Below the pieces are notes generated by a model. It was given only the letters and a program-made list of their open reading frames with translations, was not told the DNA's origin and searched no databases. A DNA stretch of 64,000 bases from Halorubrum depositum (GTDB lineage: Archaea; Halobacteriota; Halobacteria; Halobacteriales; Haloferacaceae), in assembly GCF_007671725.1 (NCBI RefSeq), contig NZ_VCNM01000001.1, positions 1 through 64,000 on the forward strand. Reading direction: 5' to 3'. A program made the translations under genes and the position numbers. Positions 53,480-57,612 of this stretch are shown here, piece after piece. Each line of letters opens with the position of its first letter. The stretch's first letter is position 1.

Positions 53480-53953
53480 TCAGTCGTCGCCGTCGTTGGG
53501 AAGCGGGGCGTCGGCCTCGCTCTCCCCGGCCTCGTTGCTCGTGGTCGCGCCGTCGGCCTCGACCGTGATCACGGTGCAGTCGAGCTCGCTCCGGAGGAAC
53601 GAGTCGATGTCCGGGTCGGAGAGGAGCTTCTGGACCATCCGCCGCCAGCGACCCGCCTGCTTCGAGCCGATGACGACGACGTCGGCCTTCTCGGCGACGA
53701 TCTCTTCGAGGATGGTCTCCTCGACGAGGAAGCCGCGCCGGACGACGTACCGCGCGCGGTCCACCGCCCCGATCCGCCGCTCGACGGCGCGCTTGAGGTC
53801 GCTGCGTGAGACGCCGCCGGAGTTCTGATACAGGTCCACGTGGAGGATCGTGAGGTCGGCGTCGCGCTCCTCGGCGACGCGGACGGCCTCCCGCAGCGTC
53901 GCCGCTGAGTGCGACGACGGAGGGAATCGGACCGGGACCACGACGAGAGTCAT
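53480..53953 (-). CDS. universal stress protein-like, non-canonical ATP motif
   Basis: UspA-fold protein of 157 residues starting TLVVVPVRFPPSSHSAATLREAV. The region where ATP-binding Usps carry Gly-x2-Gly-x9-Gly-Ser reads VIGSKQAGRWRRMVQKLLSDPDID, so that motif is degenerate and ATP binding is doubtful. A disordered acidic tail follows. This is one of three Usp proteins in the window (with 28409 and 60896). Confidence 0.8.
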   Translation of the reverse strand: MTLVVVPVRFPPSSHSAATLREAVRVAEERDADLTILHVDLYQNSGGVSRSDLKRAVERRIGAVDRARYVVRRGFLVEETILEEIVAEKADVVVIGSKQAGRWRRMVQKLLSDPDIDSFLRSELDCTVITVEADGATTSNEAGESEADAPLPNDGDD

Positions 53954-54028: not shown

Positions 54029-54331
54029 TCACACGACGGGGGCGCCGGTCACCGCCGCGAACTGCTCCGGATCGAACCGAACCCCGCCGATCGAGTCGAT
54101 CCACGGGAGCCGCCCCAGCCGCCGAGCCCGGTCGTGCGACACGCGGACGACCGCGAACCCCGACCGGTGGTGGAGCACGAGCCGGCCCGACGTCCCCACG
54201 AGCCCGAGCAGCCCGGTGACGAACGCGTCGTGGTCGACCGATTCGGGGCGTTTCACGAAGAAGAACGCCTCCGCGTCGGGATCCGGTCCCGAGACCTCGA
54301 TCGACGCGCCGAACCGCTCCGCGAGGGTCAC
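54029..54331 (-). CDS. small ferredoxin-like protein of a five-gene cluster
   Basis: Protein of 100 residues, last gene of the cluster 54029-57187. The pattern FFFVKRPESVDHDAFVTG, then LVLHHRSGFAVVRVSHD and RLGRLPWIDSIGGVRFDPE, resembles the inhibitor-I9/subtilisin propeptide ferredoxin fold, but no protease is encoded nearby. It overlaps the upstream PASTA/HhH gene by four bases (ATGA), so translation is coupled. The function is unknown. Confidence 0.6.
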   Translation of the reverse strand: MTLAERFGASIEVSGPDPDAEAFFFVKRPESVDHDAFVTGLLGLVGTSGRLVLHHRSGFAVVRVSHDRARRLGRLPWIDSIGGVRFDPEQFAAVTGAPVV

Positions 54332-55626
54332 CGCCCCTCCGTCATCCGGGCCGCCTGTTCGATCCAGTCCGCGGCCCGGCTCGTCGACGCCCGCGTGATC
54401 TCGGCGACCGTCTCCGGGTCGAGCGCCGACAGCTGCGCGACGTTTTCGATCCCCTTCTCGCGCAGTCGACTCGCGTACGTCGGTCCGATGCCGGAGACGG
54501 ACTCGAGCCCGGGCGACTCCTCGTGGCCGGCGAGCTCGTCCTGCAACGCGCGGACCCGCTCGACCGGGATCGACAGCCGCTCGGCGAGCTCCTCCGGGTC
54601 CTGTTTCACCAGCGACTCGAGGTCGGTGACGCCGGCGCGGTGCAGCCGGTCCGCGACGGCCGAACCGTTCTCCGGATCGGCCTCGACGATCGCGCGGCGG
54701 AACGCCTCCATGCGCTCCTTCTCGTCGGCGTCGGTCGGTTCGTCGGGCTTCTCCTCCGCGGGTTCGTCGACGCTTGCGTCGCCGCCCCCCGTCGCGTCAG
54801 CGTCGGTCGAGTCGGTCGAGTCGTCGGTATCCTCATCCGCGTTCGATTCGTCCGTCGTCTCCGTACTCGATTCGTCTGTCGCCTCCGGACCGGCGGCGGG
54901 CTCCTCGGCGAGAACGAGGTCGACGGGCGATCCGGGCTCGGCGACAGCGTACGCGTCGGGGAACTGCTCGACGACGGCTCCGGGGGTCGTCGTCGGGTCG
55001 GGGGTGCGCTCGACCGCGCCGACCGCGAGGTCGGCGGCGGTCAGCCGGCGGACCGCGGCCTCGCGCGACAGCCCTCGCAGCTCCGGCACGTCGACGTACT
55101 CCGTCTCCGGTCTGTCCGGCTCGGTGCGGGGCGCCCGCAGCCGGAACGAGACTTCGCTGAGGTTCGCCGAGAGCGACGACTCGTCCAGCGAGGGGAGGTG
55201 CATCCGGACCCCCTCCTCGGTCTGGGTCACGTTCGCCTTGAGCGTGAAGTCGACGTCGTCGACGCGGTACCGCTCGCTCGATAGGTCGTCGTCGGCCGCC
55301 TCCAGCGCCGCGCCGAGGTTCGAGAAGACGGTCTTCGGCTCCAGCGCCGGCCGCTCGGCCTCCAGTTCCCGCACGCGCTCCTGCAGCCGATCGCGGTCGT
55401 CGCTCAGCGTCGAGAGCCGGTGCTCGAGCGCGTCGCGTTCGCTCCGCACGTCGAGTACGTCGGTCTGGAGCCGGACGAGCGACTCCTGCCGCTCGGTGAT
55501 CACCCGCTCGAGCGCCGCCCGCTCGACGGTGTCGAGCTTGTCGACGTCGAGCTGCGGGACCTCCGCCAGCTGGAACGTCTCGGCGATCCGATACGGGTCG
55601 CTTTTGACGTCGAACCCGTCGCTCAT
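54328..55626 (-). CDS. coiled-coil, PASTA-like and helix-hairpin-helix protein
   Basis: Protein of 432 residues with an unusual domain order. A coiled coil lies at about residues 30-95, and a beta region at about 115-165 (YRVDDVDFTLKANV; LSEVSFRLRAP). A PASTA-like unit follows at about 177-240 (VPELRGLSREAAVRRLTAADL; PGAVVEQFPDA). After an acidic linker (about 241-305) come helix-hairpin-helix motifs at about 310-425 (GLESVSGIGPTYASRLREKG). PASTA domains are best known outside the cell on serine/threonine kinases and penicillin-binding proteins; no signal peptide or membrane helix is seen here. Start ATG at 55626 overlaps the preceding gene by four bases. Confidence 0.75.
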   Translation of the reverse strand: MSDGFDVKSDPYRIAETFQLAEVPQLDVDKLDTVERAALERVITERQESLVRLQTDVLDVRSERDALEHRLSTLSDDRDRLQERVRELEAERPALEPKTVFSNLGAALEAADDDLSSERYRVDDVDFTLKANVTQTEEGVRMHLPSLDESSLSANLSEVSFRLRAPRTEPDRPETEYVDVPELRGLSREAAVRRLTAADLAVGAVERTPDPTTTPGAVVEQFPDAYAVAEPGSPVDLVLAEEPAAGPEATDESSTETTDESNADEDTDDSTDSTDADATGGGDASVDEPAEEKPDEPTDADEKERMEAFRRAIVEADPENGSAVADRLHRAGVTDLESLVKQDPEELAERLSIPVERVRALQDELAGHEESPGLESVSGIGPTYASRLREKGIENVAQLSALDPETVAEITRASTSRAADWIEQAARMTEGR

Positions 55627-56015
55627 GGTCGACGCGTCTCCGGCGGCACGGGCGCGATCTTGAGGCGGACCTCGCTCGCGATCTCGGCGTCCACCTCGTA
55701 CTCGTCCGCGACGCGATGGTTGAGCGGCACGGCTTTCACGACGGGCTTGTACCCGCGGACCTGGTTCGTCTCCGGGTCGCGGATCTCCTTGCCCTCGACG
55801 GAGAGCGTCACCTCCAAGTCGGCCTCGACCTCGGCGAAGCGGAGCCACGACGCGTCGAGGTCGTACGCGAGCTCGCCGCTCTCGATCTCGCGTTCGAGCG
55901 CGCGCTGGGACGCCATCGACCGGCGGTCCAGCTCCTCTTGCCCCTCGGCGACCGAGAACGCGACCGAGCGGACGAACTCCGAGAGCGGTCGCGCGAGCCA
56001 CTCGTCAGTCGGCAC
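55623..56015 (-). CDS. cluster protein, third paralogue (possible DUF2589-like)
   Basis: Protein of 130 residues from a GTG start overlapping the upstream gene by eleven bases. N-terminal helix PLSEFVRSVAFSVAEGQEEL and the strand LRFAEVEADLEVTLSV line up with the same positions in the two upstream proteins (56005-56568 and 56669-57187). The C-terminal strand LKIAPVPPE matches their ends in PVP. It has an extra charged insert, EIRDPETNQVRGYKPV. It appears soluble, with no signal or membrane helix. The function is unknown. Confidence 0.65.
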   Translation of the reverse strand: MPTDEWLARPLSEFVRSVAFSVAEGQEELDRRSMASQRALEREIESGELAYDLDASWLRFAEVEADLEVTLSVEGKEIRDPETNQVRGYKPVVKAVPLNHRVADEYEVDAEIASEVRLKIAPVPPETRRP

Positions 56016-56568
56016 GGTCGCCTCCGCGTTCCGCGTCGGTCCCCGTCGATGAGTCGGCCCGCACCGGAAGCGGCGTCGGTTCGAGGCGCGCGGCCAGTCG
56101 GGCGTTCGCGCCGAACTCCCGGTCGAACCGTCTCCAGTCGATCACCGACTGCGTGCTCGCCGTGAGCCCGCTCGCGGGGTCGGCGGGGTCACCGTTAGTG
56201 CTCCCGTCGTCGCCCTCGCGTTCGGTCGCGCGCACGTCGACGTCGACTTCGACCGTCGCCTCGCTGAACCGGTACCAGGCGGGCGTGATCCCGATCTCCA
56301 GCAGGGATCGGCGCTCCGTCGCGGCCGGCGTCGCGGTGACCGTCCCGTCGGTGTCGATCGTCCGCGTGACCGACGGGACGACCTCGAGTTCGGTCTCCGC
56401 GAGCGACGTCCCCGTCTCCGCGCTGTGCGCGTCGAGCGCGGTCTGCGCGTGGGCGACGCCCGCGGCCAGCAGGTAGACGAGGTCGTCGAACGGGACGTCC
56501 GCGACCGGCTGGTCCGGTCGGCGGCGGGCGGTACTGGGCAGACTCACGTGATGGGCACGTAGTGGCAT
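56005..56568 (-). CDS. cluster protein, second paralogue (possible DUF2589-like)
   Basis: Protein of 187 residues (or 180 if the GTG at 56547 is used). VPFDDLVYLLAAGVAHAQTAL, SLAETELEVVPSVTRTID and YRFSEATVEVDVDV correspond segment by segment to the first gene of the cluster (VPFPEMVASMGQGIADAQNQL, TLAETEIEVVPAITRTID, YQFSEAVIEVEMDI). Two paralogues side by side suggest a hetero-oligomer. A Thr/Ser/Asp-rich loop follows the last motif. A link to the bacterial DUF2589 family is a suggestion from pattern only. Confidence 0.7.
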   Translation of the reverse strand: MPLRAHHVSLPSTARRRPDQPVADVPFDDLVYLLAAGVAHAQTALDAHSAETGTSLAETELEVVPSVTRTIDTDGTVTATPAATERRSLLEIGITPAWYRFSEATVEVDVDVRATEREGDDGSTNGDPADPASGLTASTQSVIDWRRFDREFGANARLAARLEPTPLPVRADSSTGTDAERGGDRAD

Positions 56569-56668
56569 AGATGGCGGTATCGCGGGTGCGGTTCGATTGT
56601 CGCAGGTGGGGTTCAGGCGTCGCCGTCGGGAGCCGCTCTCTCGACGGCGGGACCGCGAACCGATTCGA

Positions 56669-57187
56669 TCACTCCTCGGGCGTGGTGCGGTTGTCGACGG
56701 TCTCGACCTCGGGAAAGAGGTACGGCGGCTCCGGCACCGGGACCATCGTGGTCTTCAACTTGCTCGTCCCGTGGACCTCCTTCCCGAACTTGCGGTTGTG
56801 GCTCACGTCGGTCTGTATGCTGCCGCCCCACAGTCCGAATCCGGCGTGCGCCTTGGCGCTGACGTCGATGTCCGTCTCCCGCTCGGTGGTCGTCTTGATG
56901 TCCATCTCGACTTCGATGACGGCCTCCGAGAACTGATAGAACGTCGGGAACAGCCCCGCTTGCAGCAGCGAGACGTCGATCGCGTCCGCCGAGGAGTAGG
57001 TGACGTCGCCGTTCGAGTCGATCGTCCGCGTGATCGCCGGGACGACCTCGATCTCGGTCTCCGCGAGCGTCTTGGCGACCTCGACCGAGTTCATGTCCAA
57101 CTGGTTCTGCGCGTCCGCGATCCCCTGGCCCATGCTGGCCACCATCTCGGGGAACGGTACGTCGAGTAACTCCTGTCCTACGGACAT
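56669..57187 (-). CDS. cluster protein, first paralogue (possible DUF2589-like)
   Basis: Protein of 172 residues, first gene of the cluster. An N-terminal amphipathic helix (VPFPEMVASMGQGIADAQNQ) leads to a beta-sandwich-like part (AETEIEVVPAITRTIDSNGD; YQFSEAVIEVEMDIKTTTER) and a C-terminal strand LKTTMVPVPEPP. The pattern (helix, paired beta motifs with an EA.IEVEM strand, PVP end) recalls the DUF2589 family, unverified. TATA-like GTTTAATATC (minus, about 57210-57219) stands 23-32 bases before the ATG at 57187, so this gene leads the transcript. Confidence 0.72.
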   Translation of the reverse strand: MSVGQELLDVPFPEMVASMGQGIADAQNQLDMNSVEVAKTLAETEIEVVPAITRTIDSNGDVTYSSADAIDVSLLQAGLFPTFYQFSEAVIEVEMDIKTTTERETDIDVSAKAHAGFGLWGGSIQTDVSHNRKFGKEVHGTSKLKTTMVPVPEPPYLFPEVETVDNRTTPEE

Positions 57188-57538
57188 TCTTAAGTAATGA
57201 TCACAATAGATATTAAACTGGTATGTAATAAATTAGGGGAGTTGTCGACGGTTTTTGGGTGGTGTTCGGTGGTCCCTCGCTTATCTCTGAGATACGTCTA
57301 AAACAATTTAAGGCGTCTTTACGGGCGTTTCACGGTTTCTTACCGAGGACCGATAACCCGGACTGTTTAAATGGGTGGTGATCGAGAATTCCCGCGGTCC
57401 GACGGTCGATCGTTTTTCGTCGGGTTCGTGCGGTAAATCACGCTCAGTACTCGATCGCTGTCGCTCAGCGATATTCAAATCCAGTCTCAATTTCCGGTCA
57501 GCAACCGTTCGCTATCGCTGACGGGTGCAGAGGTTCAG
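57188..57538. other. 351-base gap before the five-gene cluster
   Basis: Holds the cluster promoter (TATA-like at about 57210) and otherwise no supportable gene. The sequence is moderately AT-rich near 57190-57380 (AACAATTTAAGG, GACTGTTTAAATGGG), with further TATA-like boxes that could be additional promoters. The remaining part up to tRNA-Tyr shows nothing I can name. Confidence 0.5.
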
Positions 57539-57612
57539 TCCGCCCTCCCCGAATTGAACGGGGGACAAGTCGATCTACAGTCGACTGCTCTACCAGGCTG
57601 AGCTAAGGGCGG
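57539..57612 (-). tRNA. tRNA-Tyr (GUA)
   Basis: On the minus strand a 74-base cloverleaf: acceptor CCGCCCT/AGGGCGG, D arm with GGTAGAGC, anticodon loop CTGTAGA (GTA), T arm CCCCG-TTCAATT-CGGGG, discriminator A. No intron, no encoded CCA. It lies between the five-gene cluster promoter and the next gene; no attachment-site duplicate is visible. Confidence 0.93.

Follow-up and report, generated by a model that had tools for sequence, protein, structure and literature searches.

A cytosolic assembly possibly encoded by a five-gene cassette of Halorubrum depositum with three tandem paralogues and a coiled-coil/PASTA protein

The DUF2589 family (PF11655), subtilisin propeptides of the I9 type, PASTA-domain kinases and penicillin-binding proteins, and the iSTAND-type peptidoglycan-associated conflict systems are the described groups that share parts with a cassette of five genes, P1 to P5, located in a window of 64,000 nucleotides from Halorubrum depositum (contig NZ_VCNM01000001.1, positions 1 to 64,000). 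The DUF2589 family is itself uncharacterised and is mentioned in only one of 5.4 million open-access papers, a study of Archaeoglobus fulgidus, in which the DUF2589-related AF0414-AF0417 were up-regulated on lactate (PMC3949148). DUF2589 proteins have in common with P1 an AQxxLxxxS helix, a PLL..I..P strand, an amphipathic hairpin with a glycine/aromatic tip and a C-terminal strand, and their genes likewise stand in tandem pairs. Unlike in the cassette, no annotated P4- or P5-like gene adjoins the pair in the DUF2589 loci seen. With PASTA kinases and penicillin-binding proteins, P4 shares a PASTA domain that scores above the curated cut-off. In contrast to them, it has no kinase, transpeptidase or membrane anchor, joins its PASTA domain to a coiled coil, a paralogous core and helix-hairpin-helix (HhH) motifs, is predicted as cytosolic and is retained in archaea without peptidoglycan. 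P5 has its fold in common with the I9 propeptides and the stand-alone inhibitor POIA1, whereas it is encoded as a stand-alone gene without an adjoining protease, matches no Pfam family and lies inside a multi-subunit cassette. The iSTAND-type systems resemble one bacterial form of the cassette (type C) as multi-gene bacterial systems with OmpA and PASTA domains (PMC7159879), but the cassettes lack a STAND NTPase, MoxR, a vWA gene and membrane segments, and their proteins differ throughout.

Our reading, held at a little under even confidence, is that of a soluble hetero-oligomeric scaffold in the cytosol, built from the products of the five genes, with P4 as a tether and P5 as an accessory protein. 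Its grounds are the homology of a core in P1 to P4, the co-conservation of the genes, the domain order, the lack of export and membrane signals, the periodicity of a hairpin and the fold of P5, together with a purifying selection that is much stronger on P1 than on P2 or P4. The five open reading frames (ORFs) are located on the minus strand (Table 1). P2 and P3 overlap by 11 bases, P3 and P4 as well as P4 and P5 by 4 bases, and 100 bases separate P1 from P2, in agreement with the original prediction of five minus-strand genes with overlaps of 4-11 bases and a single gap. P1, P2, P3 and P5 are not named in Pfam, NCBIfam, PHROGs or PADLOC, and no description of the system was found in these libraries or among the open-access papers searched.

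The cassette was found in 96 loci from Halobacteria, methanogen lineages, ANME-2 and at least ten bacterial phyla, which fall into three types assigned by eye from the gene order. Type A (archaeal, P1-P2-P3-P4-P5) comprises 30 loci, all of them with P3 and P4, 28 with P1, 25 with P5 and 23 with P2. Type B (bacterial, P5-P1-P2-B3-B4) comprises 32 loci with P1 in all, P2 and P5 in 29 each, B3 in 28 and B4 in 26, several of the gaps falling at contig ends. The 34 loci of type C, also bacterial, have about ten genes each and encode on average five core paralogues, the first with an OmpA-like domain, besides a proline-rich or charged protein, the proteins F4 and F5 and an upstream pair of L12-like and TPR proteins; they have no P5 gene. 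Within the Halobacteria the distribution is patchy (26 of 391 genomes, 10 of 86 genera), and in Halorubrum the five genes occur together wherever the cassette was found. A phylum-wide search of methanogen lineages recovered a reduced P1-P3-P4-P5 form, with the cassette in 29 of the 91 genomes of one family (methanogen family names are inferred). The identity of P1 is 87-96% to other Halorubrum loci and 56-84% to other archaea and bacteria, with about 60% in bacteria; a plasmid of Sphaerotilus sulfidivorans, for instance, carries a 60%-identical P1 plus the matching gene set. About 85,000 species genomes were scanned, and the best 79 loci include cultured Sandarakinorhabdus, Pelovirga, Parerythrobacter, Rhodoferax, Natronomonas, Caulobacter, Flavobacterium and others. 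They also include metagenome-assembled genomes (MAGs) of Chlorobi, Chloroflexi, Cyanobacteria, Clostridia, Actinomycetes, Acidobacteria and more, where binning errors are possible; cultured strains cover all three types. In GC-rich loci the ORFs were called mechanically, and some start sites or lengths are too long. The survey also looked for the opposite outcome, five genes that are rarely together, and found them kept together in Halobacteria, other archaea and bacteria. Outside the cassette, types A and B have no conserved neighbours beyond the shared genus context.

P1 and P2 share 42% sequence identity (BLASTP, E=1e-33), P2 and P3 align weakly (E=2e-4) and P1 and P3 gave no BLAST match. 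Iterated hidden Markov model (HMM) searches seeded with P1, P2, P3 or two bacterial relatives all converged on one collection of ORFs, about 335 from 105 loci. In profile comparisons with hhalign, P3 scored 99.6% against P1, 99.0% against P2 and 99.7% against the bacterial F3 set, B3 (the third gene of type B) 94% against P1, and F4 of type C 94% against P3. Reversed or column-shuffled controls for the weaker pairs stayed at or below 0.5% (0.9% for B4-P4). By these comparisons P1 to P3 are true paralogues, as had been proposed for three tandem genes; the profiles had also been examined for three unrelated families and returned homology instead. Residues 100-162 of P4 matched B3 with 89-90%, and F5, the type C tether, matched B3 with 92.5%; reversed or shuffled versions of these pairs gave no more than 0.3%. 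As the direct comparison of P4 with P3 is weak (10%), the P4 segment is tied to the P1-P3 family through the bridging B3 and F4. On this profile evidence one helix-plus-beta core, composed of an AxxAQxxL helix, a strand of the SEAxxEVxxxV kind and a closing strand, is common to four of the five genes (P1-P4). The copy inside P4 and the conserved promoter ahead of P1 described below were absent from the original prediction.

P4 affiliates with PASTA (PF03793; 35.6 bits, curated cut-off 23.2, E=9e-9) and with HHH_5 (PF14520; 54.6 bits, curated cut-off 27, E=1.6e-14), gives weak coiled-coil family matches and has no signal peptide, which bears out the earlier description of a coiled coil, a PASTA-like unit and HhH motifs in a protein that lacks an export signal. 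The order coiled coil-core-PASTA-HhH is repeated in about 28 archaeal loci, and coiled coil-core-PASTA in the bacterial type C; type B tethers end after the core, detected there by hhalign, at a total length of 168 to 537 amino acids (aa). The main tether of the methanogens contains two to four PASTA copies. Next to the four-gene cassette of one methanogen genome (locus L227, 9550-13524), a P4 relative of 1324 residues combines a coiled coil, the core and 12 PASTA domains without an export signal.

The HhH region, well above its cut-off and present in most Halobacterial P4 proteins, in ANME-2 and in a Pontiellaceae contig, would be in line with a chromosome or DNA scaffold, in which P4 binds DNA and recruits a multimer of P1 to P3. 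We consider such a scaffold unlikely, as most methanogen P4 proteins, that of Methanohalarchaeum (L094) and, apart from L104, every type B and C tether lack HhH motifs, which also occur in proteins without a role on DNA, such as the phasin PhaH and ribosomal L21 fusions (NCBIfam matches). The hetero-oligomeric assembly guessed at originally, one with a DNA- or polymer-binding scaffold, is still a reasonable idea. DNA or polymer binding cannot be its essential function across the types: PASTA and HhH are both absent from type B, and DNA or glycan binding would therefore be an add-on.

Membership in DUF2589, a lead of the original prediction, was not supported by HMMER, which returned no match of P1 to P3 at E<=1 (family cut-off 23 bits) and, in the host's own genome, no DUF2589 match at E<=10. 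The hhalign comparison of the P1 family with ten DUF2589 proteins, in contrast, indicated homology over the whole domain (85.8%, E=5e-6, 157 columns; controls at most 0.4%), with weaker scores for P2 (35%) and P3 (28%). The lead thus holds as a distant relationship: by profile comparison DUF2589 is the nearest family and, because HMMER membership is lacking, a sister to the P1 family and not a member of it. Two DUF2589 loci were of note for their surroundings. In Parerythrobacter lutipelagi (L162, 3552-5648) two tandem DUF2589 genes stand ahead of small unknown genes and a predicted metalloprotease. About 10 kb separate this pair from the type B cassette upstream of it, and no other pair turned up in the 23 cassette-bearing genomes tested. 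On a plasmid of Vibrio sp. 16 (L163, 930-6831) the pair lies downstream of an HlyD adaptor and a peptidase-containing ABC exporter. Some DUF2589 proteins may hence be linked to export.

Across residues 84-130 of P1, the alternation of hydrophobic and polar positions in family-mean hydropathy amounts to 1.64, against 0.65 ± 0.17 for shuffled sequences, and none of 5000 shuffles reached it. The AlphaFold2 (AF2) monomer of P1 has a predicted local distance difference test score (pLDDT) of 63 and a predicted template-modelling score (pTM) of 0.40. The hairpin is unfolded and of low confidence in this model, as expected for a part that would be completed by partners. A sequence scan of P1 to P5 revealed no membrane-like span or signal peptide in any of the five proteins, and 584 of 585 family proteins lack a membrane-like segment. 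A Microcystis extracellular tube appeared as a low-ranking structural match to P1 (E=2.3) and was treated as noise.

The same hairpin feeds the main rival of the scaffold reading, a membrane-active assembly in which P1 and DUF2589 hairpins insert as a beta-barrel pore regulated by P4 and P5 and directed at the cell's own membrane or, once released, at other cells. Both its alternation and its hydrophobic tip resemble the stems of beta-barrel pore-forming proteins, a similar hairpin is present in DUF2589, and OmpA-like and PASTA domains, which bind peptidoglycan in other proteins, occur in the type C relatives. We give this pore a small but real chance, given that the cassettes encode neither a secretion signal nor a membrane helix, have no lysis gene or conserved export neighbour and show no structural match to pore-formers, and that PASTA is kept in archaea without peptidoglycan. 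Peptidoglycan is generally held to be absent from halophilic archaea. A coat of a storage or gas-filled inclusion, such as a gas vesicle or a polyhydroxyalkanoate (PHA) granule, would superficially suit an amphipathic helix with a hairpin; we hold it to be most improbable, for across the 391 genomes neither GvpA (5 of 26 genomes with the cassette vs 157 of 365 without) nor PHA synthase (10 of 26 vs 212 of 365) is enriched alongside the cassette. In H. depositum, whose genome encodes neither GvpA nor PHA synthase, roles in gas vesicles and PHA granules are excluded.

P5 was modelled by AF2 as beta-alpha-beta-beta-alpha-beta with a pLDDT of 86, the propeptide fold of Inhibitor_I9 (PF05922). Foldseek placed the subtilisin propeptide 2z58_B on top (E=3e-3, probability 1.00), and the VIA alignment with POIA1 (1v5i_B) reached a Z score of 8.2 over 70 residues at 3.4 Å. 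In a sequence-profile search of the PDB all ten matches were subtilisin propeptides, each at E 0.2-0.6 only; no Pfam family, Inhibitor_I9 included, matched P5 at E<=1. ACT domains and other ferredoxin-like folds score nearly as high as I9 in VIA. The I9 reading of the P5 model is thus good but not exclusive, and the ferredoxin fold of I9 type expected for the fifth protein holds at the level of the fold.

With its modelled fold nearest to subtilisin propeptides and POIA1, P5 might inhibit a subtilase as POIA1 does, with P1 to P4 as scaffold or targets. A protease guard of this kind is in our view doubtful, about as much as a DNA scaffold, since no subtilase gene was seen near the cassette in the loci read, type C systems have no P5 gene, chaperoning is another role of I9-like folds, and ferredoxin-like folds are widespread, with ACT domains scoring close.

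A phylogenetic tree built for P1, P2 and P3 placed the archaeal P1 and the bacterial P1 of the main type on one side of a branch with an approximate likelihood-ratio test (SH-aLRT) support of 100, and P3 behaved likewise. As separate P1, P2 and P3 lineages span the domains, the duplications predate the spread between domains, and by this phylogeny the three copies have been kept as a set. The ratio of nonsynonymous to synonymous substitutions (dN/dS) is 0.03-0.18 for P1, indicating strong constraint, and 0.36-0.86 for P2 and P4, where constraint is much weaker.

The cassette lies next to one and the same UspA gene in nine of nine Halorubrum loci examined. The interval between tRNA-Tyr and UspA is a variable site; sister species have it empty or with other content. 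In one sister genome that lacks the cassette it measures 658 bases, with an unrelated small gene in between, compared with about 3.6 kb here. No cassette remnants were present at this site in Halorubrum genomes that lack the cassette. Scans of 50,697 phage records and of 2.9 million IMG/VR contigs yielded no relatives, and P1 to P3 and P5 matched PHROGs only at E>0.1; a phage structural, tail-like or other viral origin was rejected.

The patchiness in Halobacteria and in the methanogen family, the transfer across domains at about 60% identity and the empty site beside tRNA-Tyr could be signs of an anti-virus or inter-microbial conflict system that is gained and lost under selection. This explanation appears quite improbable to us: P1 is under purifying and not diversifying selection, the proteins lack effector domains, such as those of a nuclease, ATPase or toxin, and no defence neighbourhood is recognisable. 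The sole PADLOC match concerns the PASTA part of PD-T4-6 kinase models and does not amount to membership in a defence system.

As we infer the subunit contacts, the lattice geometry, the roles of P4 and P5 and the biological function, the cytosolic scaffold would be a lattice of the paralogous subunits P1, P2 and P3, whose long helix (AxxAQxxLDxxS) would pack with that of neighbours. The amphipathic hairpin, together with at least two beta strands per subunit, would complete only upon assembly and thereby form a shared sheet or barrel (a ring, tube or shell). P4 would dock into the lattice through its own core copy and be multimerised by its coiled coil, with PASTA and HhH projecting as adaptors to a ligand or cargo. 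P5 may chaperone the assembly or shield it from subtilases. Several points weigh against this proposal. Neither Foldseek nor VIA found a significant PDB match to the P1 model, and the model itself is mediocre. Moreover, some archaeal loci lack P2, or P1 or P5, so that the composition is not fixed, and the assembly is read solely from paralogy and co-inheritance. On a broader and more tentative view, somewhat more likely wrong than right, the cassettes represent a new class of cytosolic self-assembling machine of archaea and bacteria. Three to six helix-hairpin paralogues, of a superfamily that includes DUF2589, would be arranged round a coiled-coil/PASTA tether, in four- or five-gene archaeal, five-gene bacterial and about ten-gene bacterial (OmpA-like, TPR, L12-like) forms. 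A unit kept across Halobacteria, methanogens, ANME and at least ten bacterial phyla with a main subunit about 60% identical implies a useful, portable function, and a large cytosolic structure, if formed, would count as a cell component of a new kind. With five families, three gene orders, a shared core and a candidate promoter to define it, the system is testable in culturable hosts (among them Halorubrum, methanogens and Caulobacter).

Table 1 Features of the cassette and its flanks in the window
Feature	Position	Strand	Remarks
UspA	53480-53953		flanks the variable site
P5	54029..54331	-	100 aa; stand-alone subtilisin-propeptide (I9)-like ferredoxin fold (predicted)
P4	54328..55626	-	432 aa; coiled coil - shared core - PASTA - acidic linker - HhH
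P4 helix-hairpin-helix region	54343..54711	-	residues 306-428, two stretches; PF14520
P4 PASTA domain	54907..55095	-	residues 178-240; PF03793
P4 core	55141..55329	-	residues 100-162; divergent copy of the P1-P3 helix-beta unit; coordinates by homology
P4 coiled coil	55336..55539	-	about residues 30-97; weak coiled-coil family matches
P3	55623..56015	-	130 aa; shorter third paralogue; overlaps P2 by 11 and P4 by 4 bases
P2	56005..56568	-	187 aa; P1 paralogue, evolves faster
P1	56669..57187	-	172 aa; long N-terminal helix, beta strands, amphipathic hairpin, PVPxPP end; most conserved subunit
P1 amphipathic beta-hairpin	56798..56938	-	residues 84-130, hydrophobic tip GFGLWGG; hydropathy alternation
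P1 long helix	57059..57154	-	residues 12-43, IADAQxxLDxNS motif; AF2 pLDDT about 85; A24, Q27, L30 and D31 invariant
Candidate promoter of P1	57210..57228	-	TTACATAC-N3-TTTAATAT; upstream of P1; kept across related loci
tRNA-Tyr	57538-57612		directly upstream of the cassette; flanks the variable site

Variants and neighbours were observed at some of the other loci. At one type C locus (L139, 4914-6535) and its equivalents, a protein with apparently repeated domains, weakly similar to the C-terminal domain of ribosomal L7/L12, and a TPR protein both precede the ten-gene type. Neither the L12-like nor the TPR protein belongs to a named family across its full length, and the L12-like protein was rejected as a hidden P5 (hhalign 0.6%). 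A methanogen genome (L226, 5896-8235) contains a divergent variant with a P1-like protein of 308 residues that has a C-terminal extension; the two small genes 3' of it resemble the core family by eye, the last possibly being HhH-like. In a Pseudanabaena MAG (L097, 4943-7129) an apparent fusion of vWA and OmpA-like domains with one membrane segment is encoded 1.3 kb downstream of a type B cassette.

The candidate promoter TTACATAC-N3-TTTAATAT is located at an equal distance 5' of P1 in related Halorubrum loci and is more divergent in L031. A regulon sharing this motif was rejected, as a single pattern search of the genome returned one match with at most one mismatch. A TATA-like box lies about 27 bases 5' of the P1 ATG, a distance which suggests that the P1 transcript is probably leaderless.

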